Positions 7,648-22,958 of a stretch of 64,000 nt of DNA are shown one piece after another. The notes below the pieces were generated by a model. It did not search any database and was not told the DNA's origin. It worked only from the letters and a program-made list of their open reading frames with translations. This DNA comes from an uncultured Myxococcales bacterium (GTDB lineage Bacteria; Myxococcota_A; UBA9042). The translations under genes and the position numbers were made by a program. The stretch spans positions 62,001 to 126,000 of the forward strand of contig CAJBNH010000024.1 of NCBI GenBank assembly GCA_903955385.1. The letters are read 5' to 3'. Every line of letters starts with the position of its first letter. The first letter of the stretch is position 1.

Positions 7648-8898
7648 TCAGTCTTCGCGCCAGTGCACGTAACGTTGCGCGCCCGTGTCCAGCAGCGCCG
7701 TGATCCGCTTGGTCACCTTGCCGCTTGTGCCATAAGCCTGAATTCGCACGATTTTTCCGGTAACACCGATGTCGTTCATCATCCGCCCGTGGTCGATCTG
7801 CAGCACCTGCACATACTCAGGGGGCAGCACCGTGCCGAGCTTGTCGAAGAACTGCACGAACCGCCCCGTGTTCGCAAACGGCGGGCTGAACACCAGCTTC
7901 TTCAGCGTGCGGCACACCTCGATGTACTGCCCGGCGACGTTGACGGGCACCAGCGGGTTCTGCTGGTAGCCACGCGCGCACGCCAGCGCCTCGTTGTCCG
8001 GGTTCGCCAAATTCTTGCAGATCAGGGCTTTGATGACCTCGATGGGCGCCGTGTTCACGTTCAGCTTGTCGGTCGCGTACACCGTCAGCTGGTCGCGCAG
8101 CTTGCACCACTGGGTGTCGCTCATGCCCTCGACCAGCCGCACTTCCTCAGTCGTGTCGAAGGGGGCGTCCTTCGACCGGTAGCCGTGCTTGCGGTAGGAG
8201 ATGCCCTCGGCGCCGCTGCTCTCGACCAGCTTGCGCGTGCCGGGATCGATGTCCACCCGCGTCGTGTCCGCGTCGGCCCAGTCGATGATGTTCAGCGCGA
8301 GCTGGGCCATGTCCTTGTCCAGCTCGCCGACTTGGGTCACGCCCTCGTTGCGCTCCAGCACCTTGTACAGCGTGTCGAACACCGCCTGCTTCTGGCCCAG
8401 ATCGCCGACGCGATTGACGTTGACGCGACCGTCCTCGTCGCTGGACGTGCAGCCGCAAGTGCCGCGCTCGAGTCCCACCGCCTCGCGGCCTTCCAGATTG
8501 ACCAGCTGGATGCCCATCAGGGTCATCTGCCCTTCGCAGAAGGCGTTGACGAACTCGCAGGCATAGGACGCCGTGTTGATCGAGGGCCGCTTGCCACCCA
8601 TCATCGTCGCGTACTTGGCCAGAATGCTCTCGACGATGTCCGCCGACCCGATGACCAGCGCCGCGAGTTCGACGGCCGCGCGGGCGTGCAGCGAGGCCTC
8701 GATCTCGGCCTCGACGTAGGTGGCCGTGCGGATGGCGACGCGCGACTGGTACGTGAATTCCATCGAGAAGATCGACAGGATCGCGATCGCCGTCAGCGCA
8801 AGCAGCATGGCCACGCCGCGCTGGCGGTCAGCGAGACCCCGGCTTCCCGCGCCCAAGCTGCGGCGTCCGGCGGCGATGGCGGCGCGCAGGGCGGTCAT
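7648..8898 (-). CDS. gspK: Type II secretion minor pseudopilin GspK
   Basis: A 416-residue minor pseudopilin, the large tip subunit of the pseudopilus. The prepilin leader ends at RQRG, followed by VAMLLALTAIAILSIFSMEF. Position +5 is not Glu, which is normal for GspK and unlike the other pseudopilins here. The remainder carries the typical alpha/beta domain with WADADTTRVD and DKLNVNTAPIEVI (the helix-hairpin signature LNVNTA). Start: ATG at 8898 overlaps the gspJ stop (ATGA). The longer open frame upstream is the shadow of gspJ. Confidence 0.9.
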   Translation of the reverse strand: MTALRAAIAAGRRSLGAGSRGLADRQRGVAMLLALTAIAILSIFSMEFTYQSRVAIRTATYVEAEIEASLHARAAVELAALVIGSADIVESILAKYATMMGGKRPSINTASYACEFVNAFCEGQMTLMGIQLVNLEGREAVGLERGTCGCTSSDEDGRVNVNRVGDLGQKQAVFDTLYKVLERNEGVTQVGELDKDMAQLALNIIDWADADTTRVDIDPGTRKLVESSGAEGISYRKHGYRSKDAPFDTTEEVRLVEGMSDTQWCKLRDQLTVYATDKLNVNTAPIEVIKALICKNLANPDNEALACARGYQQNPLVPVNVAGQYIEVCRTLKKLVFSPPFANTGRFVQFFDKLGTVLPPEYVQVLQIDHGRMMNDIGVTGKIVRIQAYGTSGKVTKRITALLDTGAQRYVHWRED

Positions 8899-9830
8899 CG
8901 GGTGCCTCCCGTCGTACCGGTCGCGCCGGTGGCGCCCGCACCCGTGGCGGGCAGCACGCTGAAGCCGGCGGGTGTGATGGGGGCGATTCCGTAGGGGCTC
9001 AGCGAGGTCTCGTACGCCTTCAGGTTGGCCGTGCTGTTGAAGTCCACGGGCTCCATCAGTCGCACCCGCGCCTGGGTCTCGAACGAAAGCTCGCCATCGT
9101 CGGTCTCGAGCGTCAGCTGGATGCGAATCCGCGCCGGCAGCCAAAGCTCGTCGGGCCCGTGCTTCTTGTCCTGGTTCTTCATGTCGGCCAGGGCCTTGCC
9201 CAGCTCGGCGTTGCCCGTCAATCCGGTGGCCAGCGCGGCGGCGGCGTCCTTGGCCTGTTTCTCCTGCTGCAGTCGGTCGATCTCGACGCGCCAGTCGGAC
9301 TGCCAGCTCTCCTTGTCCATATCCCAGTAAGCAAAGGTCAATTTCTTCACTCGGGTGGCCAGCACCTGTCGGCGTCCCCCCCGCAGTGGCGTGTCGTCGA
9401 TGACGACCTTCTCGCGCCGCACCAGTACGTTCTCGCCGGTCTTGGCCTCGCGCTCGACCTTGTACTCGACCACGCCCTCGTCGCTCTCGAACGAGTTGCG
9501 CACCATCGACCGGTGGCCCATGTAGGAAAACGTGATCGTGTTGGCCTTGCCCACGAAGAGTGTCTTGGTGGTGCGGTCTTCGCTCTGGTGCTTGCTGACG
9601 TACGCCATGCCCAGCTCGCGGCCCATGCGACCCAGCGCCACGCGCGCCGTGTGGTAGTCCTCCTGCACCACGCGGGTGGCCCGGATGGCGTTGATCAGCG
9701 ACGAGGTGGCGGTTGCCAGAATCACGCCCAGCATCGCCATCAGCGTGGCGCCGATCATCATTTCGAACAGCGTGAAGCCGTCAGAACTTCCTGAGATCAG
9801 GGGGATGTGCAGGTTGGCTGGGCGTCTCAT
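8895..9830 (-). CDS. gspJ: Type II secretion minor pseudopilin GspJ
   Basis: A 311-residue minor pseudopilin. The prepilin peptidase site is G18/F19 in SSDGFTLFEMMIGATL, with the required Glu at +5. The hydrophobic helix is followed by a beta-rich domain (YWDMDKESWQSDWRVEIDRL, typical of GspJ). The C-terminus ends in a Gly-Ala-Thr repeat (GAGATGATGTTGG) encoded by GC-rich short repeats, an unusual tail. ATG overlaps the gspI stop by 4 nt. Together with GspI, GspK and GspH it should form the pseudopilus tip. Confidence 0.88.
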   Translation of the reverse strand: MRRPANLHIPLISGSSDGFTLFEMMIGATLMAMLGVILATATSSLINAIRATRVVQEDYHTARVALGRMGRELGMAYVSKHQSEDRTTKTLFVGKANTITFSYMGHRSMVRNSFESDEGVVEYKVEREAKTGENVLVRREKVVIDDTPLRGGRRQVLATRVKKLTFAYWDMDKESWQSDWRVEIDRLQQEKQAKDAAAALATGLTGNAELGKALADMKNQDKKHGPDELWLPARIRIQLTLETDDGELSFETQARVRLMEPVDFNSTANLKAYETSLSPYGIAPITPAGFSVLPATGAGATGATGTTGGTR

Positions 9831-10675
9831 GGCGTGCCCCCCTGCAGGTTGGCGGGCAGCTTGCTCTCGATAGCGCCCTGAATCTTCTCAGCGTTCTTCA
9901 GCTCCTGGATCGCGCGGGCTTCCTCTTCGCTGACGGCAGTCGTGAAGGTCTCGATCTCCAGCTTGCGCTGCTCGCCCTCCTCGTCCTTCCACGACAGGTG
10001 CACGACGACCTTGCGGGTGCGGTCCGACGCGCGCTTGAGGATGCGCGGCAGCAGCTCGGCCACCATCAGGCCCATCGACATCTGCAGGACGCCGATGTTG
10101 ATGTCGCACAGGGACAGCAGGTTCAGGCCCGCGTCGCCGGACATCAGGATGGTGCCGATCAGGTCCATCATGTCGCCGCCCTTGGCCAGACCGGTCAGGT
10201 CCAGTCCGGCGGACTTGGCGCTGGACGCTGCATCTCCCAGATCCGTCAGGGGTTTCTTGCCACCGGTGTCGCCGCCCTCCAGCTTGTCCAGTGCTCCCGA
10301 CGCCGCCAGCTTCTCTTGCGCATCGGACAGCATTGTCTGCGCCTGGGTGGTCATGTCGCCGATTTCGGAATCGTCCATGTCCAGGCCGATCAGGTCGAAT
10401 TTGCACTGGAAGTGTTTGGCGTAAACCTTGGGCAGCTCGCAGTCGCGGTTGGTCAGGTCGTTGGAGGGAAAGCCCTCCTTGCGATACTTCTCTTCGATGT
10501 CGAGGATCGTGCCGCGCAGCAGCAGCGACGCGACGGTCGACCGATAGATGCGCTTGGACTGGATGGCCGCAGACGAAGACGCCGACGTGATCGCCGTCAG
10601 CGCAAACGCCAAAATGGCGAGCGCCAGCAGCACCTCGAGCAGCGAAAAGCCCTTGTTGTCGCGCCTATCCGTCAA
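9827..10675 (-). CDS. gspI: Type II secretion minor pseudopilin GspI
   Basis: A 282-residue pseudopilin with a very short leader; processing is expected at G9/F10 in DNKGFSLLEVLLALAILAFAL (Glu at +5). GspI proteins are usually near 130 residues. This one carries a large insert between about 95 and 200, rich in Asp, Ala and Leu, before the conserved end (KVVVHLSWKDEEGEQRKLEIE). The insert is the odd feature. It lies 9 nt after gspH and overlaps gspJ. Confidence 0.85.
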   Translation of the reverse strand: MTDRRDNKGFSLLEVLLALAILAFALTAITSASSSAAIQSKRIYRSTVASLLLRGTILDIEEKYRKEGFPSNDLTNRDCELPKVYAKHFQCKFDLIGLDMDDSEIGDMTTQAQTMLSDAQEKLAASGALDKLEGGDTGGKKPLTDLGDAASSAKSAGLDLTGLAKGGDMMDLIGTILMSGDAGLNLLSLCDINIGVLQMSMGLMVAELLPRILKRASDRTRKVVVHLSWKDEEGEQRKLEIETFTTAVSEEEARAIQELKNAEKIQGAIESKLPANLQGGTP

Positions 10676-10684
10676 TTCCGCTCC

Positions 10685-11317
10685 CTATCGTTCCTCTTCG
10701 CTGCGGCCAAAGCCGTCCGTCGGCTCCTTGCCTTTGATCAGGCGCGCCGTGCCCAGCAGCGCCTTGACCTCGACCGACATCACATCGTCCGGGTCTCCCT
10801 CCACGTAGACCAGCGCGTTCTCCGTCGTGCCGTTCGGAAAGAAGTAGATGTACGCCTGACCGGTCGTCGACAGCGTGGTCTGGTGCGACGTCATCACCCC
10901 CGAGAACCTCACACCCTTGTCCAGCGTGTACTTCGACAGCAGCTTCGACGGCGACGCCTGGAACGACGCCCGCTTGTCCCCCTCAGCCGCAGGCGCGCCG
11001 TCGTCCGCACCCTCACCGGGCAGCAGAAACGACTCGCACGGATCGGCCGACGTCTGCTCCTCGCCCCAGTACGCGCCGGTGTCCAGGTCGAAGACGAGGC
11101 GGTGGTTGCGCCCGGACAGCGAGGTCAGGTTGTAGAGATAGCGGACTGCAATCGCGACCTTGCCCGCCTCTGCCTGCACCGACGCGCCGCGGATGTTGCC
11201 CACGCCCGCCGCCACCGCCACGGTCACCACCACCATCACCACCATGACGACCATCACCTCGATCAAGGTGAAGCCCGCCTTGCGGGTTGGCGGCTGCCGC
11301 GGCCGGCGGAAGGTCAC
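10685..11317 (-). CDS. gspH: Type II secretion pseudopilin GspH (GTG start)
   Basis: A 210-residue pseudopilin. The GTG at 11317 overlaps the gspG stop in GTGA and gives the leader VTFRRPRQPPTRKAG, cleaved before FTLIEVMVVMVVMVVVTVAV (Glu at +5). The upstream extension of this frame to 11431 overlaps gspG and is rejected. The mature part has the GspH-like pattern of a long helix followed by LAGRNHRL-like text (LSGRNHRLVFDLDTGAYW). It ends in a Lys/Glu/Arg-rich tail (GFGRSEEER). Confidence 0.85.
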   Translation of the reverse strand: MTFRRPRQPPTRKAGFTLIEVMVVMVVMVVVTVAVAAGVGNIRGASVQAEAGKVAIAVRYLYNLTSLSGRNHRLVFDLDTGAYWGEEQTSADPCESFLLPGEGADDGAPAAEGDKRASFQASPSKLLSKYTLDKGVRFSGVMTSHQTTLSTTGQAYIYFFPNGTTENALVYVEGDPDDVMSVEVKALLGTARLIKGKEPTDGFGRSEEER

Positions 11318-11727
11318 CGCTCCTCTCCGTCGTGGCAGATGTCGTCGTCGGTCCCGGTCTTGCGGTCGGGGCCGTTCGAGCACAGCGAGAAGCCCTCGCC
11401 GGTCGTCGAGTACACAAGCTCCTGCTTCCACGGGTCCAGACGGTCGGCTTCCTTGATCTTCGGCTTCAGGTCGGCCAGCGAGTCCGGAAAATCGCCTTGC
11501 GTGGCCTGGTGGTAGTTCACCTTGGCGGCGATGCTTTGCACCTGGATCTTCGCGGTCTTTTCGCGGCCTTCGCCGAACAGCTCGAACACGCCGACGGCAA
11601 GGGTCGAGCCCAGCACGCCGATGATGACGATGACGACCATGATCTCGATCAAGGTCATGCCCCGTTGGGCCTTGTCGACGACCAGAGCGACCGGTTCCTG
11701 GCCTTCCTTGCTCAAACAGGTGTGCAT
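11314..11727 (-). CDS. gspG: Type II secretion major pseudopilin GspG
   Basis: A 137-residue protein of the usual length for the major pseudopilin that builds the piston-like pseudopilus. The leader runs to AQRG, followed by MTLIEIMVVIVIIGVLGS with Glu at +5. The C-terminal region has the family layout DPWKQELVYSTTGEGFSLCSNGPD, and GTDDDI is the calcium-loop region. ATG at 11727 is chosen over a TTG six codons upstream because AAGGAGAG sits just before the ATG. Confidence 0.93.
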   Translation of the reverse strand: MHTCLSKEGQEPVALVVDKAQRGMTLIEIMVVIVIIGVLGSTLAVGVFELFGEGREKTAKIQVQSIAAKVNYHQATQGDFPDSLADLKPKIKEADRLDPWKQELVYSTTGEGFSLCSNGPDRKTGTDDDICHDGEER

Positions 11728-11741
11728 CTTCTCTCTCCTTT

Positions 11742-13001
11742 TCAACCCGAGACCGACTGGCTCAGCTTCATCATGGGCAGCATGATCGCCGCGACCAACA
11801 GACCCACGACGACGCCCATGAACACGATCATCAGCGGCTCGAGCAGCGAGGTCAGGGCGTTCACTCGCGTGTCGACCTGGTTCTCGTAGCTCTCGGCCAC
11901 GTTCTTCAGCATGTTTTCGAGCTCGCCCGACCGCTCGCCGATCGCGATCATGTGCACGACCATGGGCGGGAACTCGTTGGAACGCTTCAAGGGGCCGGCG
12001 ATGCTGTCGCCTTCGCGAATGGCGGTACGGGCCTCAGCCACCACCTTGGCCAGCACCCGGTTCGACACCACGTTCTCGACGATCTCCAGCGCGGTCAGCA
12101 GCGGCACGCCCGAGCTCAGCAGCGTGCCCAGCGTGCGCGAGAACCGTGAGATCGCGACCTTGCGGATGATGTCGCCCATGATGGGCACCTTCAGCAGCCA
12201 ACGGTCCCACTTGTCGGCGCCCGCCTCTGTGCGGTGCCAGCGGTGAAAGGCGTACCAGCTGCCGACGGCGCCCAGAATCATCAGGGGCCAGCCGACCGAC
12301 ACCATCCGCGACATCGCCATCATGATCCGTGTGATCATAGGCAGTTCTGCGCCCATGTCCTCGAACATCGTCGAGATCTGCGGCACCACGAACAGCATCA
12401 TGCCCATGACGATGGCGAACGCGATCAGCATCATGACCGCGGGATAGGTCATCGCGCCGATGATCTTGTTGCGCAGCTTGACGTACGACTCGGTGAAGTC
12501 CGCCAACCGCAGCAGCACGATGTCCATGTTGCCCGACGTCTCGCCGGCCCGGACCATGTTGTAGTAGGTGGAATCGAAGACCTTGGGGTGGTTCTGCAGC
12601 GCGCGCCAGAACGCCACGCCTTCGTTCACCTCGGTGCGGACCTGCGCAAGGACGCGCTTGAGCTTCGGATTCTCGACCTGTTCGGTCAGCGCCTGCAGGG
12701 CCTCGACCAGCGGCACGCCGGCCTTCAGCAGGGTCGCCAGCTGCCGCGTCACCTCGGACACATCGGCGGGCTTGATGGTCGTCAGGAACTCGCCGAGATC
12801 GAAGTCCCGCGACCCCGCCTTTTGCTTTACGCCCGCGCGGACCTTGTCCTTGCCGCCCTTGACCGACGTCTCGTGGTACTCGGTCAGGAAGACGCGGTCC
12901 CGCTTCATGGCGGCCCGCAAGCCGCGCACGCTGTCGGTGTCGAGCACGCCCTTGATGGTGCGTCCGCTCGCGTCCTTGCCGATGTACTCGTAAACAGGCA
13001 T
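11742..13001 (-). CDS. gspF: Type II secretion inner-membrane platform protein GspF
   Basis: A 419-residue polytopic inner-membrane protein that begins MPVYEYIGKDASGRTIKGVL, as GspF/PilC proteins do. It has two repeated GspF domains (about 75-200 and 280-405), each with TLLKAGVPLVEAL- or TLLSSGVPLLTAL-type signatures, and hydrophobic segments near 175-200, 225-245 and 385-410. It forms the core of the platform beneath the pseudopilus and contacts GspE. A 39-nt gap separates it from gspE. Confidence 0.93.
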   Translation of the reverse strand: MPVYEYIGKDASGRTIKGVLDTDSVRGLRAAMKRDRVFLTEYHETSVKGGKDKVRAGVKQKAGSRDFDLGEFLTTIKPADVSEVTRQLATLLKAGVPLVEALQALTEQVENPKLKRVLAQVRTEVNEGVAFWRALQNHPKVFDSTYYNMVRAGETSGNMDIVLLRLADFTESYVKLRNKIIGAMTYPAVMMLIAFAIVMGMMLFVVPQISTMFEDMGAELPMITRIMMAMSRMVSVGWPLMILGAVGSWYAFHRWHRTEAGADKWDRWLLKVPIMGDIIRKVAISRFSRTLGTLLSSGVPLLTALEIVENVVSNRVLAKVVAEARTAIREGDSIAGPLKRSNEFPPMVVHMIAIGERSGELENMLKNVAESYENQVDTRVNALTSLLEPLMIVFMGVVVGLLVAAIMLPMMKLSQSVSG

Positions 13002-13040
13002 TCGGTTCCGGTTGCTCCTGACGGGGGACGAGCCCCCGCG

Positions 13041-14765
13041 CTACTCCTCGTCGTCCGCGTTGGCGATGCGCATCACTTCCTCGACGGTGGTGATGCCGGC
13101 CATGACCTTCAGGGCGCCGTCGTCGCGCAGCGTCGCCATGCCGTCGGCCATCGCCGCGCGCTTGATGGTTCCCGCATCGGACTTGGCCACGACCAGACGC
13201 TTGACCTCTTCGGTCGGCGTCAGCAGCTCGTGCAGACCGGAACGCCCTGCGTATCCCGACATGCCGCACTCGGGACAGCCCTTGGCGCGGAAGAACGTGG
13301 CCTTCTTCAGCCGTGGATCCCCCCGCTTCAGGCCAAGCTGCTCGAGCTCCAGATCCGTCGGCAGGTGCGGCACCCGGCAGTCCTTGCACAGCACGCGAAT
13401 CAGGCGCTGGGCCAGAATGCCGACGATCGACGACGACAGCAGGAAGGGTTCGACGCCCATGTCGACGAGTCGTGTGTAGGTCGAGGCCGCGTCGTTGGTG
13501 TGCACGGTCGACAGCACCAAGTGACCGGTCAAGGCCGCTTGCACCGCGATTTCCGCCGTCTCGAGGTCGCGGATTTCGCCCACCAGCACCACGTCGGGGT
13601 CCTGACGCAGCGTGGCGCGCAGACCCTTGGCAAACGTGAAGTCGATCTTGGGGTTGACCTGCATCTGGCCGATCCCTTCCAGCTGGTATTCGACCGGGTC
13701 CTCAATCGTCAGGATGTTGATGTCGGGGTTGTTGATGGTCATCAGCGCCGAGTACAGCGTCGTGGTCTTGCCGGAGCCGGTGGGACCGGTGCACAGCAGG
13801 ATGCCGTTGGGCCGATGCACCAGCGCGTCGATGGCCTGCACCACGTCGGCGCGCATGCCCAGGGTCTTCAGGTCCAGAGTCGTCGATGTCTTGTCCAACA
13901 GACGCATCACGATCCGCTCGCCGTGCGCGGTCGGGATGGTCGACAGACGCAGGTCGATGTCGCGCCCGGCCACCTTGATGCGGATGCGGCCGTCTTGGGG
14001 CAGGCGTTTCTCTGCGATGTTCAGGCCGCCCATGATCTTGACGCGGCTGGTGATCGAAGGCTGGAAGCGCTTCGACGTCCGCACGACCTCTTTCAGCACG
14101 CCGTCGCGCCGAAAGCGGATCATCACGTACTTCTCCATCGGCTCGATGTGCACGTCCGACGCCCGCTCCTTGGCCGCCTGATTCAGCACCGAGTTGACCA
14201 GACGGATGATCGGGGCCTCGTCGCTCTCGTCGAGGATGTCCTGCGCCGCGTCCTCGAGCTCCGACGCGATGTTGGCGATGCCGTCGTCCGTCTTCTCCAT
14301 GTCGTCGACGACCTGATCCGCGCGGGCGCGGCGGTCGAAGGCGAAGTTGATGGCGGCGTTCAGGGCTTCGGTCGACACCAGAAAGGGCTCGATGCGCGGC
14401 CCGCCGAACAGCACCCGCAGGTCGTCCAGCGCTCCTGTTGCCAGCGGGTTGGCCAGCGCGACGTGCAGGGCGCCGTCCACGCGGCGAATCGGCAGGATCT
14501 CCGACTCCTTGGCCCAGGTCATGGTCAGCGGCGCCACCATCGACGGGTCGATGGTGTCCTCCTCGATCTTGGCCAGCACGAGCATGCCCATCTGGTCGCC
14601 AAGCGCCTCCAGCACCTGCAGCTTGGTGACCGAGCCTTGGCCGACCAGCAGCTCGCCCAGCAGGCCGCCGCGGTCGGACTGGATGCGCAGGGCAGACTCG
14701 ACCGCCTCAGCCGTGCATTGGCCGCGCGAGACGAGGATTTCGCCGATGGGGCGCGGGTCGATCAT
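13041..14765 (-). CDS. gspE: Type II secretion ATPase GspE
   Basis: A 574-residue secretion ATPase. An N-terminal GspE_N domain (MIDPRPIGEILVSRGQ...) is followed by the ATPase core with Walker A GPTGSGKT at 327-334, the Asp box and GEIRDLETAEIA (Walker B region), and His motifs ending STVHTND. A tetracysteine zinc motif is formed by C460/C463 and C497/C500. Start: ATG at 14765 is one base after the gspD stop (TGACATG). The longer open frame upstream is the gspD shadow. It powers pseudopilus assembly in the cytoplasm. Confidence 0.94.
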   Translation of the reverse strand: MIDPRPIGEILVSRGQCTAEAVESALRIQSDRGGLLGELLVGQGSVTKLQVLEALGDQMGMLVLAKIEEDTIDPSMVAPLTMTWAKESEILPIRRVDGALHVALANPLATGALDDLRVLFGGPRIEPFLVSTEALNAAINFAFDRRARADQVVDDMEKTDDGIANIASELEDAAQDILDESDEAPIIRLVNSVLNQAAKERASDVHIEPMEKYVMIRFRRDGVLKEVVRTSKRFQPSITSRVKIMGGLNIAEKRLPQDGRIRIKVAGRDIDLRLSTIPTAHGERIVMRLLDKTSTTLDLKTLGMRADVVQAIDALVHRPNGILLCTGPTGSGKTTTLYSALMTINNPDINILTIEDPVEYQLEGIGQMQVNPKIDFTFAKGLRATLRQDPDVVLVGEIRDLETAEIAVQAALTGHLVLSTVHTNDAASTYTRLVDMGVEPFLLSSSIVGILAQRLIRVLCKDCRVPHLPTDLELEQLGLKRGDPRLKKATFFRAKGCPECGMSGYAGRSGLHELLTPTEEVKRLVVAKSDAGTIKRAAMADGMATLRDDGALKVMAGITTVEEVMRIANADDEE

Positions 14766-14766
14766 G

Positions 14767-17625
14767 TCACTCCTGGCCGGCCGCGGGCTTGGCGGGGGCG
14801 GGATCGGCGGCGGGGGCTTCAGGTGCTGCGGCCTTGGTTGCCTCAGCCTTCTTGCCCTTGGCCGACTTGCTGGCCTTCGCGGGCGACTTGCCCTTCTTCG
14901 CCGGCCGTCCGTCGGGCAATTCGATGACGTCCACGCCCGAGTCGTCGCCCTTGTCCTCCTGCGCGCCACCGTCGTCACCCGCGGGCTTGAAGGGGTCGTA
15001 GTCGAGATCGTGGCGGTCGGGCGGACCGACCAGATCCACGTCAGAGTTGTCGAAGTACGCTTTCTCGATCATCCGCCGCTCGCCGGACGCCTGATCCACG
15101 GCCTGGAACAGGTGCTCGAGGAAGCCCTTCTTCTTCCGGTAGTCGACCTTGCCCTGGTACTCCTTGCGCTTGGTGGCCAGCTCATCGGCAAAGTCGCGGA
15201 TCTGCTCCATCTTGTTCTCGTGCATGCGCTCGAGATCACTGGGATCCTTGATGATGTGCGGCACCACGATCAGCATCAGGTTCTTCTTCTCGATGCTCTT
15301 GGTCGTCTTGCGGAAGAAGGTGCCGAGCAACGGCAGGTCGCCCAGGATCGGGATCTTGGCCACGCCGTTGGACTCGCGGTCGGTGATCAGGCCGCCGATG
15401 ACGACAGGCTGCTGGTCGCGCACGACCACGGTGTTGTTGACCTTGCGCTTCGAGGTTGTCGGCCCGAGGTTGGGGTCGATGCCTTCCACCTCGTCCAACT
15501 GCTCTTCGATCTTCAGCTTGATGAAGTCGCTCTCGTTGATCTGCGGCGTGATCCGCAGCGTCAGGTCGACGTCGATGTACTGCACGGTCGAGCCCATCGA
15601 ACCCAGACCCGCCAGACCTGCCAAACCGCCCAGCGCGCTCGAAGCCGTGCTGCCCAGGCTGCCCAACGCGCCCAGACCGCTCATTCCGCCCATGGTCTGC
15701 GACCGGTAGGGGACCTTGCGGCCGACGGTGATCTCCGCCTCTTCGTTGTTCAGCGTCAGGATGTGCGGAGTCGACAGCAGGTTGACGTCGGAGTTCTCTT
15801 GAATCGCCTGAATCAGGAAGCCGAACGCGGGGATCGACAGCGTGACGCCTGCAACCGCCGACGAGCTGGCGTTGCCCGCAGCGACCGACAGCAGCGGCCC
15901 TTGCAAGCCTGCCGCAAAGCCACCCGAGTTCAGCTGGCTCAGGTTGACGCCACCCATGCCCAAGCCGCCCAAACCCATCAGGAACGGGACGGTGTCGCCG
16001 CCGATGTCGAACGTGGTGCCGCCCGAACCGGCGATCTGAACGTTGCGGTTCTTCGAGGTCGAGATCTCCATGATCACGGCCTCGAGGTAGACCTGCTTGC
16101 GGCGTGCATCCAGCTGGGCGATGACCTTCTGCAGGCTGACGTAGTCCTTCAGCGAGGACTCGATCACCAAGGCGTTCGTGGCTTTGTGCGCGGTGATCTT
16201 CACCTCGCCCTCGAACAGCGCCGCAGACGTTCCGGGACCACCCGCTGCCGGCTTGGCGCCGCCCTTGGCACCCTTGCCGCCCGACCGCGACGAGGTGCCC
16301 GACGCCAGCGACTGCAGCGTGGACGCCAAATCCTCCGCGTCGGCGTTTTCGAGGTGGTGGATGTGGATCTGGCCTTCGCCGGGAATCGGCGTGTCCAGCT
16401 TGCGAATCAGGGCGTCGATCTTCAGGTAGTTCGAGCGCGTGGTAACGAGGATGATCTGGTTCGACCGCTCGTCGGCGATCGCCTTGGTGATCACGACCTT
16501 GCCGCCGCCGGGACCGGCCGCGCCGGGAGCACCGGCAGGCCTCGCGCCGCCACCCGTCTCAGAGAACACTGCCGTGATCTTCTCGACCAGCTCGGCCGCA
16601 TCCATGTGCTGCACCGGGCGAATCCAGATCTTCTCGCTGCCCAGCGGGACGTCAACATCGGCCAACAGCTTGATCATGCGACGGATATTGCTGCCGCTGT
16701 CGGTGACGATCACCGTGTTGTTCGGCGGATACACGAACACGTCGCCGGCCTTGGACTTGAACTTGCTGAGGATCGGCTCGACCTCCTTGGCGTCGAGGTG
16801 CTCCAGATGGATCAGGCGTGTCACGATGTTGTCGTCGGCCGGCACGCCCGCCTTCGGACCCAGCACTTCGGCACCAGAGGCGCGCGCGTCGCCCACGTCG
16901 ACGATGTGGTAGAAGTCGCCCTTCTTCACCACCGCCATGCCGTTGACGTTCAGGGACGACAGGAACGCCCGGTAGGCCTCGTACACGCTGACCGGCTGCG
17001 GCGACAGGATGGTGATCTTCCCGCCGCGCTTCTGCGTGGCGATCAGGAAGTTGCGGTTCATCCAGCAGGACATCAGCTTGGTGATCGACTCGATCGGTGC
17101 TTCCTGGAAGTCGAGCGTGACCCGCGCATTCAGCGGCAGCCGCTTGCACTTCACGTCCTTCTCGAAATTCGACTTGAAGGTGACCAAATCCTCGATCTTT
17201 TGCTCGTCATCGGACTCGGCTGCTGCGGGCGCGGGCGCTTCGTCCTTGGCGGCAGCGCGCGAGGCCTTGCCACCGCGGACGGGCTTGGGGACGACGGGCT
17301 CCTCAGTGCCCGGCTCCTGGTCCAGCCTGCGACTGGTCTGTGCGGGGTCGTAGGCCGGGTCCAGCGACGAGGACTTGCCGCGCTTCAGCACGCCGTCCTT
17401 GCCGGAAGTTGCCTTGATCTCGCCGCCTTCGCCCCGCTTCTTGGGCATGCGGCCGGTGCCGCCTTGGACGGGGATCGCCTTTTCGCCTTCCTCGGCCTGG
17501 GCACCCGCACTGGCGGGCATCAGCAGCGCAAGGCCGAGCAGAGTGGGCAAGCCGATGGACAGGACCGGATGCCGGAAGGCAGGCCGGCGGTCAGCGGTGC
17601 AGAGGGGCAGGGCGGGAGCACTCAA
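14767..17625 (-). CDS. gspD: Type II secretion secretin GspD (probable TTG start)
   Basis: A secretin forming the outer-membrane pore, 952 residues from a TTG at 17625. GGAG lies 7 nt upstream of that codon, and it gives a plausible signal peptide ending near ASAGAQA; no ATG fits upstream without entering gspC. About 140 residues of Lys/Pro/Ala-rich low-complexity sequence precede the N0 domain (FKSNFEKDVKCKRLPLN...), which is unusual. N1-N3 repeats follow (VFVYPPNNTVIVTD, VTTRSNYLKIDALIRKLD). The secretin domain has VPYRSQTMGG, VDLTLRITPQI and VVVRDQQPVVIGGLITDRES. A Lys-rich C-terminal extension of about 170 residues may serve a pilotin. It is translated 65 nt after gspC. Confidence 0.88.
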   Translation of the reverse strand: MSAPALPLCTADRRPAFRHPVLSIGLPTLLGLALLMPASAGAQAEEGEKAIPVQGGTGRMPKKRGEGGEIKATSGKDGVLKRGKSSSLDPAYDPAQTSRRLDQEPGTEEPVVPKPVRGGKASRAAAKDEAPAPAAAESDDEQKIEDLVTFKSNFEKDVKCKRLPLNARVTLDFQEAPIESITKLMSCWMNRNFLIATQKRGGKITILSPQPVSVYEAYRAFLSSLNVNGMAVVKKGDFYHIVDVGDARASGAEVLGPKAGVPADDNIVTRLIHLEHLDAKEVEPILSKFKSKAGDVFVYPPNNTVIVTDSGSNIRRMIKLLADVDVPLGSEKIWIRPVQHMDAAELVEKITAVFSETGGGARPAGAPGAAGPGGGKVVITKAIADERSNQIILVTTRSNYLKIDALIRKLDTPIPGEGQIHIHHLENADAEDLASTLQSLASGTSSRSGGKGAKGGAKPAAGGPGTSAALFEGEVKITAHKATNALVIESSLKDYVSLQKVIAQLDARRKQVYLEAVIMEISTSKNRNVQIAGSGGTTFDIGGDTVPFLMGLGGLGMGGVNLSQLNSGGFAAGLQGPLLSVAAGNASSSAVAGVTLSIPAFGFLIQAIQENSDVNLLSTPHILTLNNEEAEITVGRKVPYRSQTMGGMSGLGALGSLGSTASSALGGLAGLAGLGSMGSTVQYIDVDLTLRITPQINESDFIKLKIEEQLDEVEGIDPNLGPTTSKRKVNNTVVVRDQQPVVIGGLITDRESNGVAKIPILGDLPLLGTFFRKTTKSIEKKNLMLIVVPHIIKDPSDLERMHENKMEQIRDFADELATKRKEYQGKVDYRKKKGFLEHLFQAVDQASGERRMIEKAYFDNSDVDLVGPPDRHDLDYDPFKPAGDDGGAQEDKGDDSGVDVIELPDGRPAKKGKSPAKASKSAKGKKAEATKAAAPEAPAADPAPAKPAAGQE

Positions 17626-17632
17626 GGGGCAT

Positions 17633-17661
17633 CTCCGGAGCAGGAAAACGCTGTTTCCTGC
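17633..17661 (-). promoter_or_regulatory. Intercistronic hairpin and RBS before gspD
   Basis: Between gspC and gspD an 8-bp perfect inverted repeat (17640-17647 with 17654-17661, GCAGGAAA/TTTCCTGC, 6-nt loop) ends three bases before the GGAG ribosome binding site (17636-17633) of gspD. No T-run follows, so it is not a typical terminator. It could stabilise mRNA ends or tune secretin translation. Confidence 0.5.
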
Positions 17662-17690
17662 GGGGGACGGGGGCCACGGGGCCGCTCGCG

Positions 17691-18668
17691 TCAGCGAATC
17701 GTGTAGCGCAGTGTCTTGGCGACACCGCCGCGGTCGATGAGCACGGTCAGACGGGACTTGTTCTTCAGGGCTTCGTACAGGGCCAAGGCCTTGTTCGGGT
17801 TGTCGATGCGCTCGCCGTTGACGGCCATCAGCAGGTCGCCATTCTCGAAGCCGATGTTCTTGATCAGGCTGTTGCCGGCCATACCGACCATGCGCACGCC
17901 TTCCTGCTTGCCATTGCGGTAGTTGGGCACCACGCGCACTTCGGCGCTGAACTTGGACAGGTCTTTCAGCTTGTCGTTCAGGTTGTTGCGGTCCAGTTGC
18001 CAGGCGGTGTCGGATACGCGGCGCACGCCCTCGACGTTGGGGCCGGCGGTGGGCGACGGCAGCGGGCGCTGCGGCATGGTCGCGGGCGCCACCGCAGCGG
18101 TCGGGATGCCGGCCGCGCCGCCCGGGTCCTTGCCGAACAGCGGCGCGATGGTCAGCTTGGCGCCTTCCTGCAACACAATGTAATTGCGCCGGATCGCGTA
18201 CACGGTGGCTTGGCCGCCCAGCAGCTCGACGCCCACGTTGACGATCTTCTGCTCGCCTTTCTCGACTTCCAGGCTGGCGCTGGACCACGTCTCGGGAGAG
18301 ACGACCATCGTGCCCAGCAGCTTCACCGGCAGCGTCGTCGGCTCGTAGGTCGGGACAAGCGGCCCCTCGTCCGCCGCCTCGGCGCCTTCCTCAGGCGGCG
18401 GCTCTTCGGGCAGCGGCTCTTCGATCAGGAAGATCGACCGACCGGCGATGACGGCACCCGACTCGTCCCGCAGCCGACCGTCGCGCAGGCGCTGACTGAC
18501 ACCGTCGGAGTCGCCCTCGGCCGCCACCATCGGCCGCGCCTCGCTGCGGCCCAGCTTCGTCAGGTACATGCCGACAAACGAGTTCATCGACCCCGCCGTC
18601 AGCCAGGCGATGATGCCAAGCCCCAGCAGGTTGATGAGCCAGAAGTGGCGTTTCAGCAGAACTTCCAT
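17691..18668 (-). CDS. gspC: Type II secretion protein GspC
   Basis: A 325-residue first gene of the operon. A short cytoplasmic tail and one membrane helix (about residues 8-27, FWLINLLGLGIIAWLTAGS) lead to a Pro/Glu-rich linker and the periplasmic homology region (PVKLLGTMVVSPETWSSASLE at about 115-135). A C-terminal PDZ-like domain ends the protein (GNSLIKNIGFENGDLLMAVNGERI; alternative to the coiled coil of other GspC). GspC links the inner-membrane platform to the secretin. Promoter: the sigma-54 site at 18767-18783. Confidence 0.9.
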   Translation of the reverse strand: MEVLLKRHFWLINLLGLGIIAWLTAGSMNSFVGMYLTKLGRSEARPMVAAEGDSDGVSQRLRDGRLRDESGAVIAGRSIFLIEEPLPEEPPPEEGAEAADEGPLVPTYEPTTLPVKLLGTMVVSPETWSSASLEVEKGEQKIVNVGVELLGGQATVYAIRRNYIVLQEGAKLTIAPLFGKDPGGAAGIPTAAVAPATMPQRPLPSPTAGPNVEGVRRVSDTAWQLDRNNLNDKLKDLSKFSAEVRVVPNYRNGKQEGVRMVGMAGNSLIKNIGFENGDLLMAVNGERIDNPNKALALYEALKNKSRLTVLIDRGGVAKTLRYTIR

Positions 18669-18766: not shown

Positions 18767-18783
18767 AGCAAAGGTCGTGCCAG
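18767..18783 (-). promoter_or_regulatory. Sigma-54 promoter of the gsp operon
   Basis: On the minus strand the sequence is CTGGCACGACCTTTGCT, which matches the RpoN consensus YTGGCACGrNNNTTGCW at every specified position, with exactly 10 bp between GG (-24) and GC (-12). The expected start of transcription is near 18756, about 88 nt before the gspC ATG. Promoters of this class need an enhancer-binding ATPase, and a candidate upstream site is at 18888-18900. Confidence 0.85.
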
Positions 18784-18887
18784 TTGCCCGGACAAAAGAC
18801 GTTTGTCGAATTGAGACCTTGCGCGACGGGGGACGATACCTCGCGCGACGCGCTGGCACACCGGCCGCTGCCATCCGCCTCTCGTCG

Positions 18888-18900
18888 TGCCAATTTGGCA
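18888..18900. promoter_or_regulatory. Candidate enhancer site, copy 1 (TGCCAATTTGGCA)
   Basis: A 13-bp near-perfect dyad (TGCCAA-T-TTGGCA) ends 105 bp upstream of the sigma-54 promoter of gspC. The same 13-mer occurs at 22946-22958, 106 bp upstream of a second sigma-54-like promoter. This is the placement expected of an upstream activator site for an enhancer-binding protein. It also lies 98 bp before the divergent lipoprotein start. Confidence 0.65.
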
Positions 18901-18997
18901 AACCGTACACGGAATCACGACTTTGCGGCGTGCGTCGGGGCCAGCTATGCTCCGTCCGGTCTCTGGACCTCGCGTGCGGGTCCCGACCGGAGGAACC

Positions 18998-20047
18998 TTG
19001 CGTCGTCATGTCCCTTGCCGCAAGTCGGCGTCTGCGCTGGCCGCCATCCTGCTGGCGTGTGCAGGTCTGTCCGGTTGCGGCACGACCGAGTCCGAGTCTG
19101 TCGATGCCGCCGACCTCTCGGTCGCCGACGTCGCCGAGGACGGGGCCGCGATCGACGTGCCGCTCGATGTCACCGCCACCGACACGGCCGCCCCAGACCT
19201 GCCAGATACCGGCGTCGACGCCACGCTGCCGGATGTCCCCGACGGCTGCATCCCGCTGTGCGAGGGCAAGAAGTGCGGCCCGGACGGCTGCAACGGCATC
19301 TGCGGGTACTGCAAGACCGGCCAGCTCTGCATCGACGACGGGGCGAAGTGCAGCGAGTTCTGCAAGCCGCTGTGCGACGGCAAGAAGTGCGGTGACAACG
19401 GCTGCGGAGGCGACTGCGGTGCTTGTGGCGACGGGTTGCACTGCGGACTCGACTTCCTTTGTCACGAGAACGACTGCATCAGCGACTGCGGCGCGATGAA
19501 GTGCGGCCTCGACACGTGCGGCAAGAGCTGCGGCCTGTGCGCTGACGGCGACTGGTGTGACGCAGGCACGTGCAAACCCTCTCCGTGCAAGGGTATTCCC
19601 GACAGTGGCAAGTGCGATGGCGTCGTGCTGTCGGTCTGCGTGGGGCAGGGAGCCACGGCAGAGAAGCAACTGGTGGACTGTTCGGCAACACCCGGCAAGA
19701 TCTGCGGTTTCGACGGATTGGCCGGCAAGTACGCCTGCATCGACAAGCCAGCCTGCACGCCGGTCTGTCAGGCGACTCGCAACGGCCAGTCGGTCAAGCT
19801 CGAGTGCGGCGACAACGGCTGCGAGGGCGTCTGTGGCGTCTGCGCCAGCGGCTGGTCGTGTCCCGACGGCCAGTGCATCCCGCAGAAGGGCGCAGCGTGC
19901 GGCCCGCTGCCCCCGCAGGGTCAGTGCATGGGCGACGTCTGGATGTTCTGCAATACCGGCAAGATCGCGCTGATCGACTGTCAGGCCGACCTGGGTCAGA
20001 CCTGCGGCTGGGACAGCAAGGTGGGCAAGTTCACCTGCGTGCCGTGA
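18998..20047 (+). CDS. Cys-rich repeat lipoprotein (TTG start)
   Basis: A predicted 349-residue surface lipoprotein. The TTG at 18998 is preceded by GGAGGAACC, an excellent ribosome binding site, and gives a basic N-terminus, a hydrophobic core and the lipobox LSGC (Cys27). An Asp/Ala/Thr-rich linker (about 30-75) leads to Cys-rich repeats of the form CxPLCxGKKCGxxGCxGxCGxC (at about 80-175 and again near 250), interspersed with two copies of a module with CGFDGLAGKYAC or CGWDSKVGKFTC. Such repeats are common in myxobacterial lipoproteins, but their function is not known to me. It converges on truA with a 4-bp gap. Confidence 0.8.
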   Translation: MRRHVPCRKSASALAAILLACAGLSGCGTTESESVDAADLSVADVAEDGAAIDVPLDVTATDTAAPDLPDTGVDATLPDVPDGCIPLCEGKKCGPDGCNGICGYCKTGQLCIDDGAKCSEFCKPLCDGKKCGDNGCGGDCGACGDGLHCGLDFLCHENDCISDCGAMKCGLDTCGKSCGLCADGDWCDAGTCKPSPCKGIPDSGKCDGVVLSVCVGQGATAEKQLVDCSATPGKICGFDGLAGKYACIDKPACTPVCQATRNGQSVKLECGDNGCEGVCGVCASGWSCPDGQCIPQKGAACGPLPPQGQCMGDVWMFCNTGKIALIDCQADLGQTCGWDSKVGKFTCVP

Positions 20048-20051
20048 CGCG

Positions 20052-20930
20052 CTAGTCCTCGTCCTCGTCGGCCGTTTCGCCCCAAGCCCGGTTCATGTTC
20101 GTCAGCAGCCGTTTGTAATCAAGGCCTTGGCGTTCACCAGCCGGGCCGAACATCACCTCGTCCAGCGTCAGTCCGTGGGCGGGAGCGGTCTGCCCGGCGC
20201 GGGTGCGGTCGCGGCTGGCCAAGATCGCCGGCATGTCCTCCGGCGCGAGTCGGTGGTGCCCGACGTCGACCAGCGTGCCCGCGAGGATGCGCACCATGTG
20301 CATCAGGAACGCATTTCCCTCGACGGTGATCGTCAGCAGCCGCTCGTCGACTGCCTCGACCTGCACGCGCCGCAGGTTGCGGATCGTCGACTTGGCCACG
20401 CACGCGATGTCGCGAAACGCGGCGTAGTCGTGGACGCCTGCCAGCAGCGGCGCCGCTTGCATCATCGCCTCGAGGTCCAGGGGAGCGCGGACATGCCACG
20501 AGGTCCGGCGCCACATCGGCGACAGCGACTCGTTCCGTTGGATCCGGTAGACGTACCGCTTGCCGACGGCATCGTGGCGAACGTGGAACTCGGGCGGCAT
20601 GTCCTCCACCGCTTGCACGGCAAGGTCGGGCGGCAGGTGGCGATTCAGCCCCAGCTTCAGGTTGCGCGGCGGCACCTTGACGGCGGTCATCACCAGCACG
20701 GGCATTCGGCGCGCGTGGACGCCAGAGTCGGTGCGGCTCGACGACCGCGCGACAATCGTCTCGCCCATCATCCGCAACCAGGCCTTCTCAATCTCGCCTG
20801 CGACCGTTCGCAACGGCGGAGCCTGCCTCTGGAATCCGCAGAAATCGGTGCCCTCGAACTCGACCCACAGCAGCACCTGCCGACTGGGGCGGAGCGGGGC
20901 GTCCTGTGGGGCCGGGGATTGGTCAGCCAT
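20052..20930 (-). CDS. truA: tRNA pseudouridine synthase A
   Basis: A 292-residue enzyme that isomerises uridines 38-40 in the anticodon arm of tRNAs. The catalytic Asp is D68 in SSSRTDSGVHA. Other TruA motifs are FCGFQRQ near 30, RYVYRI near 127 and HDYAAFRD in the middle, with NAFLMHMVRILAGTLVDVG in the C-terminal domain. It is slightly longer than the usual 260-280 residues because of Pro-rich and Asp/Glu-rich ends. It lies 50 bp downstream of the outer-membrane fusion gene and may be read through from its promoter. Confidence 0.93.
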   Translation of the reverse strand: MADQSPAPQDAPLRPSRQVLLWVEFEGTDFCGFQRQAPPLRTVAGEIEKAWLRMMGETIVARSSSRTDSGVHARRMPVLVMTAVKVPPRNLKLGLNRHLPPDLAVQAVEDMPPEFHVRHDAVGKRYVYRIQRNESLSPMWRRTSWHVRAPLDLEAMMQAAPLLAGVHDYAAFRDIACVAKSTIRNLRRVQVEAVDERLLTITVEGNAFLMHMVRILAGTLVDVGHHRLAPEDMPAILASRDRTRAGQTAPAHGLTLDEVMFGPAGERQGLDYKRLLTNMNRAWGETADEDED

Positions 20931-20980
20931 CGGCGCACAATCGCTTGCGGTGGCAGGGGACGGGACGTTCGCGCTGGGGG

Positions 20981-22756
20981 CTAGAGGTCGAACGCAAGAC
21001 CGAACACCAGCACGTCATCCGACAGGTCGATCGACTTGGAGTCGCCAAAGTCGTTCAGGGAGAGACGTCGCCACTCGCCGAACAAATACGAGTGGTTCAC
21101 GCCCATCTCGATGTCGAAACTGCGCGCCGCCGAGGGCTCCAGCGGGTCGAGCTGGAAGCGAAGACCCACCGATCCGTGCAAACCGGCCACTCCGCCTCGG
21201 CCGACGAACGTATCTCCGGCGGCATCCGTGTAGCGGCTGATGTTGCCCACGCCGTTCTCGATCCACCACACCCCATAAGCCAAGCCGACCTTGCCGTACG
21301 GGATGAGGGGAAAGCCGGTCTTCTTGGAAATCCAGTCGAATCGGTACACGAGGTCCAGGGTCAGCGGGATGATGTTCAGGGTCGTCTTGTCCTCGGTCGC
21401 GCCGCCCGACACCGCCAGACTCTGGCCGGTGGCCGACCACCAGCCCGCGCCGACGCCCATGCTGAGATCGCCAAACCCGTGGAAGATGTTCCAGTCGATG
21501 CTGGCGCCCCACTCCCAGTCCGACCCGCCCAGCACGTCGGCATACGGCACGGCGCCGGTGGTCTTCGCGAACTCGCGGTCGATGCCGGGCTGGTAGGAGC
21601 CGAACCGCAGGTCCAGGCTCGAGGTCTGCGGCGACTCGGCGCGCGCTTCGCCTGCGGCCACCATGCCCAACGTGCCGATAGCGCCAAGCGCAACGATGAC
21701 CCGGCTCAGGCGAGCGAGGGGCAGCTTGCGGCGCGTCGCCAGAACGACAACCGGCAGGAACAGCAGCAGCCACGAGAGGTTGCCTGTCCCGCTCCGGCCA
21801 GAGCTGCAGCCGTAGTAGCCGCCCTCCTCCGTGCCGCCGTTGGCCTTGTAGTACTGCCACAGGTCCTGCACCTCCAGCGGGGCGCCGGACATCACGACGG
21901 AGCCGTCGCTCTCGTTGTCGTTCGCGTCAATCGCCGAGACCGAGACGTAGTACGTGGTGCCGTTGGTCAGGCCGGTGATCTGGTAGCTGGTGGCCGTCAG
22001 CACGCTGGACTTGCCCTCAGCCATCCACGCCGTCGCCGCGGTCAAGGGTTGCTTGGACCAGTAGACGCGAGAGGAAAGCGTCGTGGCGGTGTCCACATGC
22101 TCCCACGTCGCCTTGAGGTTCTCACTGCCTGAAGACAACCCGGTCAGGGTCGGGGCCTTCGGCGCTTCGAGGTCGACGTCGATGTTCAGCGCAACACCGG
22201 TGACCGTGGTGGTGGCGGTGCCTGTCGAGAGGTCCTTGACGATGAAGTAGATCTTGGCGCCGGTGGTCGAGTCTACGTTGCAAGCCGTGTCGCCCAGCAC
22301 ATCGCGCAGGTCGATGTCGACCGTCTGCCCCGAGGCCGTCAGCGGGTTGTCGAAGTCATGGTCGCTGGTGATCACCTTGCACGCCGAGTCGCTCGCCGAC
22401 TCGGTCATGTCGTTCTCGTCGCAGCTGCGACCGGGCGGGGCGATCTTGATGCCGTACTGCGGCGTCGCCTGCAGCACGTTCTTGTCCAGCCACGACCAGG
22501 TGATCCGAATCTTGGGCGAGGCGTGGGCGCGAATCGTCTCGCAATCCGCGATGTTGATCACGTGGGTGACCTTGCCCAGACCGATCTGGTTCGATGTCAG
22601 TCCCAGCCGGTCGTTCGGCGTGAAGTCGCTGCCGGGCTTGCCGACGATCGAGTCGACCTGGATGGTGACCGCCTGTGCCGCCGCCGCCGAGAACAGCGCC
22701 GTCGCCGCAAGTCCGCACACGACCGCTGCCCGGATCTGGTTGCCGCTTGCCTTCAT
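20981..22756 (-). CDS. Fusion: Fn3 surface protein with internal sorting-like tag and C-terminal outer-membrane barrel
   Basis: A 591-residue protein. A signal peptide (1-27) is followed by a beta-rich domain and a fibronectin III-like domain (about 195-295, APTLTGLSSGSENLKATWEH... and TYYVSVSAIDANDNES). At about 314-344 comes a GCSSGRSG-hydrophobic-RRK element (Cys317) that looks like a MYXO-CTERM-type C-terminal tag. A second signal-like hydrophobic segment ends AAGEARAES near 376, then about 215 residues have alternating patterns and end in FGLAFDL with terminal Leu, as in an outer-membrane beta-barrel. No ATG, GTG or TTG lies in frame between RRK and the second hydrophobic core, so it seems to be one polypeptide. 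The ATG at 22756 has GGAGGA 7 nt upstream. Confidence 0.75.
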   Translation of the reverse strand: MKASGNQIRAAVVCGLAATALFSAAAAQAVTIQVDSIVGKPGSDFTPNDRLGLTSNQIGLGKVTHVINIADCETIRAHASPKIRITWSWLDKNVLQATPQYGIKIAPPGRSCDENDMTESASDSACKVITSDHDFDNPLTASGQTVDIDLRDVLGDTACNVDSTTGAKIYFIVKDLSTGTATTTVTGVALNIDVDLEAPKAPTLTGLSSGSENLKATWEHVDTATTLSSRVYWSKQPLTAATAWMAEGKSSVLTATSYQITGLTNGTTYYVSVSAIDANDNESDGSVVMSGAPLEVQDLWQYYKANGGTEEGGYYGCSSGRSGTGNLSWLLLFLPVVVLATRRKLPLARLSRVIVALGAIGTLGMVAAGEARAESPQTSSLDLRFGSYQPGIDREFAKTTGAVPYADVLGGSDWEWGASIDWNIFHGFGDLSMGVGAGWWSATGQSLAVSGGATEDKTTLNIIPLTLDLVYRFDWISKKTGFPLIPYGKVGLAYGVWWIENGVGNISRYTDAAGDTFVGRGGVAGLHGSVGLRFQLDPLEPSAARSFDIEMGVNHSYLFGEWRRLSLNDFGDSKSIDLSDDVLVFGLAFDL

Positions 22757-22823
22757 CACCGCGTCCTCCGACCGTCCGCTGCGACCTCGACTCTGGGTCG
22801 CCGCAGGACCAACGCCCTTGTTC

Positions 22824-22840
22824 TGCATGGCCCGTGCCAA
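22824..22840 (-). promoter_or_regulatory. Sigma-54-like promoter of the outer-membrane fusion gene
   Basis: The minus strand reads TTGGCACGGGCCATGCA. The -24 element TTGGCACG is perfect, the GG to GC spacing is exactly 10 bp, and only the first T of TTGC is replaced by A. Transcription would begin near 22813, about 57 nt before the ATG at 22756. The palindrome at 22946-22958 lies 106 bp upstream. Confidence 0.75.
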
Positions 22841-22945
22841 AGGCACCACACGCCAACCTCGCGACAGCTTGCGGGTATTCCCAACTGCCCGGCAATTCCG
22901 CGTGCCTTTCGGTCACGACCGACGGCCCGAACAGTGGCTCAACCT

Positions 22946-22958
22946 TGCCAATTTGGCA
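22946..22958. promoter_or_regulatory. Candidate enhancer site, copy 2 (TGCCAATTTGGCA)
   Basis: An exact second copy of the 13-bp dyad found upstream of gspC. It lies in the 226-bp gap between asd and the outer-membrane fusion gene. Measured from dyad centre to the -12 C, the distance is 127 bp here and 126 bp at gspC. Confidence 0.65.

Follow-up and report, generated by a model that had tools for sequence, protein, structure and literature searches.

Predicted activator dyads in common to the sigma-54 promoters of the type II secretion operon and a fused envelope gene in Myxococcota

The type II secretion system (T2SS) operon and a fused envelope gene of an uncultured Myxococcales bacterium carry the same dyad at nearly the same distance upstream of predicted sigma-54 promoters. 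From sequence comparison, it is proposed—with a probability of roughly 0.8—that both dyads are activation sites for one NtrC-type enhancer-binding protein, C122:73944-75362, which would drive sigma-54 transcription of the operon and of the fused gene. Relatives throughout the phylum keep this arrangement at the secretion operon, often with an activator gene alongside; hence, the dyad is very probably a real regulatory site, and its activator can be named. A single enhancer-binding protein for type II secretion and this envelope gene had already been suggested in the first-pass annotation of the window (the whole stretch of 64,000 nucleotides that was analyzed). The suggestion gains support from 41 of 41 family promoters, from 24 of 28 gspC loci outside the family, and from one orthologous activator.

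Dyads, promoters, and target genes in the window

At a standard sigma-54 enhancer, activator dimers sit on dyads on the same face of the DNA, which loops to bring them to a -24/-12 promoter. The anatomy of the window fits this layout (Table 1). Each of the 13-mers forms a perfect 6-1-6 dyad about an odd centre base, and the gspC and fusion promoters both show the -24 GG and the -12 GC at 10-bp spacing within a TGGCACG-N4-TTGC-type consensus. On re-reading, the 13-mer stands at the two positions given in the first-pass annotation, and recomputation returned the same gaps between dyad and RpoN site (105 bp for gspC and 106 bp for the fusion gene), the same distances from dyad centre to the -12 C (126 and 127 bp), and a GG-GC spacing of exactly 10 bp at both promoters. 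Two details had to be amended. The RpoN sites are as described, but their starts had been placed at 18783 and 22840, which includes one surplus 5' base; the correct starts are 18782 and 22839. Also, one dyad had been assigned to each promoter, which is right for the main dyad but overlooked a weaker second site lying 42–43 bp closer to the promoter.

Table 1. Predicted regulatory sites and their target genes in the window
Feature	Position	Strand	Remarks
Predicted upstream activator dyad of gspC, TGCCAAATTGGCA on promoter strand	18888..18900	-	Exact 13-mer; core in 21/21 family gspC promoters
Weaker second site of gspC promoter, TGCCAGCGCGTCG	18846..18858	-	42 bp promoter-proximal to first dyad; weak conservation at +42 to +54 in family alignment
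Predicted sigma-54 -24/-12 promoter of gspC, TGGCACGACCTTTGCT	18767..18782	-	Conserved in 21/21 family genomes
Predicted upstream activator dyad of fusion gene, TGCCAAATTGGCA on promoter strand	22946..22958	-	Core in 20/20 readable family fusion promoters
Weak second site of fusion promoter, TGACCGAAAGGCA	22903..22915	-	43 bp promoter-proximal to first dyad
Predicted sigma-54 -24/-12 promoter of fusion gene, TGGCACGGGCCATGCA	22824..22839	-	Conserved in family
gspC, first gene of type II secretion operon	17691..18668	-	Weak T2SSC match just below Pfam cut-off
Remaining T2SS operon in view (gspD, E, F, pseudopilins, gspK; presumed one transcript)	7648..17691	-	Secretin, T2SSE, T2SSF, T2SSK domains
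Fused envelope gene, 591 codons, one open frame	20981..22756	-	MXAN_2561-like part and MXAN_2562-family barrel

The dyad is rare in this genome (5.30 Mb in 201 contigs). TGCCAATTTGGCA occurs exactly twice, upstream of gspC and of the fused envelope gene; TGCCAANTTGGCA is found at these two places only, and the looser, degenerate TGNCAWWWTGNCA is likewise restricted to both promoters. For TGCCAANTTGGCA, about 0.1 copies per genome are estimated by chance from base composition, and no copy turned up in 3 Mb of first-order Markov sequence. A perfect TGNCA-N3-TGNCA at a gap of 103–108 bp from a given promoter has a chance of ~9e-5, and two promoters have one. A genome scan for the 13-mer and for RpoN sites, as suggested in the first-pass annotation, confined the 13-mer to two RpoN promoters: the genome contains 16 TGGCACGNNNNWTGCW sites (vs one for the reversed control), and among these 16 only the gspC and fusion promoters have, at that distance, a dyad that is perfect or nearly so. 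A third match to the combined module in this genome (C118:21860) and seven surplus matches in relatives were dismissed as chance, since none of them has a proper -12 element.

gspC was found in all 21 family genomes, at 48–66% identity to the query. The fused gene encodes, in this order, a signal peptide, an fn3-containing MXAN_2561-like part, a MYXO-CTERM-like segment, a second signal-peptide-like helix, and an outer-membrane beta-barrel of the MXAN_2562 family. The barrel scores 206 bits against a cut-off of 100 (NF040596). The MXAN_2561-like part covers nearly the full model (NF045522) at 91.5 bits against a cut-off of 150 and is hence a homolog rather than a member of that family. Both known families are thus matched by the fused gene, but here in a single frame with an internal sorting segment. 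This segment, of a MYXO-CTERM-like Cys/helix/Arg make-up, reaches 15.9 bits for the MYXO-CTERM sorting domain (TIGR03901) against a cut-off of 20 and is internal instead of C-terminal; other members match TIGR03901 with E values down to 1.6e-6. MXAN_5598, in which an internal MYXO-CTERM is followed by an outer-membrane barrel, offers a comparison (PMC11980579). Genomes of the family retain the fusion, and in several other families of the class the two halves appear as separate, adjacent matches. Processing of the fused gene product as a polyprotein is possible.

Conservation within the family and across the phylum

The family sample spans 10 genera, with 21 readable gspC promoters and 20 readable fusion promoters. 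All 41 bear the TGNCA-N3-TGNCA dyad together with an RpoN site, at a gap of 103–108 bp to the -24 element—a count with some selection built in, as the dyads were picked as the best among gaps of 100–111 bp. The comparison of both intergenic regions in close relatives, which the first-pass annotation had called for, thus finds dyad and spacing kept. All eight bases of the dyad core are invariant and its centre is almost always A/T, and the flanking columns mostly stay below 0.5 bits. At individual promoters, the weaker second site begins 42–43 bp after the first dyad. The combined pattern of dyad and RpoN site mostly gives two matches per family genome, with few control matches. Much of the conservation at the 41 promoters recurs in named MAG contigs of the family, a set that overlaps with these genomes. 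These named relatives are uncultured Myxococcales MAGs, several of them lake-derived according to their isolate names. One MAG titled Klebsiella pneumoniae (L134, CAMDBH010000030.1) carries a locus of this Myxococcota family, and its record is probably mislabelled.

Further elements were noted at these loci. A weakly conserved A-rich element lies between dyad and -24, about 80 bp after the dyad start, in 21–31 of the 41 family promoters; an IHF site was one possibility weighed for this interval. In one genus, a third TGCCATTTTGGCA between fusion gene and gspC (L137:9695, L140:9674, L143:2741, and L157:9697) was set aside; it has no RpoN site and probably sits inside or beside another gene. Several relatives also bear bare dyads elsewhere, with as many as 19 places in a genome, and the examined copies are not accompanied by an RpoN site at the fixed spacing. 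Hence, the dyad alone is not diagnostic in these relatives.

Beyond the family, a perfect dyad lies within 500 bp upstream of gspC at 24 of 28 loci from other families of the phylum. At these 28 loci, 32 dyads fall into 14.8 kb of upstream sequence versus 11 into the remaining 495 kb, a 97-fold enrichment; the control pattern gives 0 upstream and 2 in the remainder. The perfect dyad is absent from the other four loci, and several loci have poor -24/-12 matches. Outside the family, the distance from dyad to best -24/-12 match ranges from about 50 to 175 bp, which makes the fixed 105 bp a family trait. The fixed distance put forward in the first-pass annotation therefore holds inside the family and not elsewhere in the phylum. 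Similarly, the exact 13-mer described there is the shared site in this genome but is family-specific as a general motif, for which TGNCA-N3-TGNCA is the conserved core. Where perfect dyads are paired, at 11 loci (eight gspC and three MXAN_2561-like), they are always 39–41 bp or about four helical turns apart—an arrangement that suits two activator dimers on the same side of the DNA.

For the MXAN_2561-like partner, a dyad with an RpoN site (≤2 mismatches) was found at 12 of 20 loci outside the family. In a phylum-wide sample, this holds for 3 of 15 loci, all three from the class of the window, and the predicted co-regulation of the pair hence applies to the class and not to the phylum. The family and phylum samples share ancestry, and their counts are not independent events. 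Nevertheless, a putative operator that is conserved in 10 genera and in several families besides, between flanks that have diverged, is hard to explain otherwise.

A candidate activator and its rivals

In many other families, gspC is directly preceded by a sigma-54 activator gene, which encodes an NtrC-type response regulator. For every one of these activators, the best match in the present genome (G000) is C122:73944-75362, which is 48–57% identical to the full-length gspC-adjacent copies; the next best protein reaches at most 46%. In a tree of the gspC-adjacent copies, the orthologs from the family, and the remaining activators encoded here, the first two group together with support of 100/98. 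This tree was rebuilt without long rows after a long-branch row had joined the group in the first one, and F1ORTH_L296, a mis-framed relative that it contains, was disregarded. The clade has the HTH core GDK..A.LLG...RT.YR in common. C122:73944-75362 itself shows the NtrC-type architecture of a receiver, a sigma-54 AAA+ domain with GAFTGA, and a Fis-type HTH, and a single copy of its ortholog is present in 18 of the 21 genomes of the family, including all 15 of good quality. The gene adjoins one for an RNase E/G, and the adjacent frames examined hold no kinase. No activator gene was found on the contig of the window, and none was reported in the loci of the named family MAG contigs. Since gspC and the activator gene are unlinked in this family, the assignment is based on orthology. 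The gspC-adjacent activator of M. xanthus may be Nla4.

Since this genome encodes about 15 full-length activators and the assigned gene lies apart from gspC in the family, the dyads might instead be sites of another of its enhancer-binding proteins. This appears unlikely, as only C122:73944-75362 groups with the gspC-adjacent activators and has the recognition-helix sequence in common with them, and as none of the good family genomes lacks it. Even less probable is that the dyad binds a separate repressor or an activator of another type, with its place upstream of RpoN sites reflecting only a shared promoter layout. A perfect short dyad would suit many regulators, and bare copies do occur away from RpoN sites in some relatives; however, the distance to -24 is constant in the family, the promoter core is not overlapped, and both the pairing of sites at 39–41 bp and the linkage to an activator gene speak against such a regulator. 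A chance likeness of two short palindromes, for which a degenerate 8-base core expected at ~1.4e-5 per base might be invoked, is refuted by the conservation at all family promoters and the enrichment outside the family.

For C122:73944-75362 as the common activator, the following sequence of events is proposed. Once phosphorylated, it would bind as dimers to TGNCA-N3-TGNCA and, some four helical turns closer to the promoter, to the weaker site; the dimers would form an active ring and loop the DNA. The ring would then open the complexes of RpoN and RNA polymerase at gspC and at the fused gene, both of which are taken to depend on RpoN. In this way, the cell would make its T2SS together with a surface-anchored fn3 protein and an outer-membrane barrel, with the surface part of the fused gene as a likely T2SS client. 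Surface delivery of MYXO-CTERM proteins requires the T2SS (PMC11980579), which renders a joint production of the machine, a surface-anchored partner, and a barrel coherent. Maybe, the activator is even a dedicated regulator of secretion status with no targets other than the T2SS operon and the MXAN_2561/2562-type pair. In that case, the pair would act as an accessory of the Myxococcota T2SS—for example, an outer-membrane module receiving or anchoring lipidated MYXO-CTERM clients—rather than one more client; this extension is speculative and put forward tentatively.

Relation to known regulons and other RpoN promoters

The nearest parallel is the PrsR/PrsK sigma-54 regulon of PEP-CTERM genes (PMC1569441), which also concerns a sorting-tag class, has an activator motif upstream of -24/-12, and had its NtrC-like regulator assigned by comparative genomics. 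Its motif, however, contains TTTACA and lies on average about 63 bp before -24/-12, in contrast to TGNCA-N3-TGNCA at 103–108 bp, and so the sites described here are not of the PrsR kind. That regulon is furthermore tied to EpsH/exosortase and many target genes in Proteobacteria; the one proposed here is tied to myxosortase and two operons in Myxococcota. Nla28 of Myxococcus xanthus (PMC7910581) is alike in its phylum and as an NtrC-like activator acting on repeats upstream of sigma-54 promoters, but it differs in its half site, CT(C/G)CG(C/G)AG, and in its targets, which are developmental and natural-product genes and not the T2SS. In the literature searched, with few subscription papers among it, no earlier account of the regulon was found under Nla4, MXAN_2516, MXAN_2561/2562, or links between T2SS and sigma-54 in Myxococcus, and within that literature the first-pass annotation was right to call it undescribed. 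New are the proposed regulon, its operator, and the partner pair; the mechanism class of sigma-54 with an enhancer-binding protein is known.

For type II secretion in Myxococcota, whose MYXO-CTERM surface proteins depend on that system (PMC11980579), a candidate regulator and an operator recurring across the phylum are proposed here. In addition, a widely conserved, uncharacterised pair of surface protein and outer-membrane barrel is tied to the T2SS, and the role of the pair becomes testable in a culturable myxobacterium.

Several other RpoN sites of this genome bear different repeats, as would follow if each of several activators governed its own subset. At four RpoN promoters (L006, L010, L015, and L016), the upstream repeats are of the GGTCTC/GAGACC type, suggestive of a second regulon under a different activator. 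One of these, L006 (G000:C24:129874-129889), lies just past the window and precedes a ComM/YifB-like gene, as judged from the translated start. Five further RpoN promoters (L011, L012, L013, L014, and L017) carry ACATGT- or GAGACA-like elements and perhaps belong to a third activator group.
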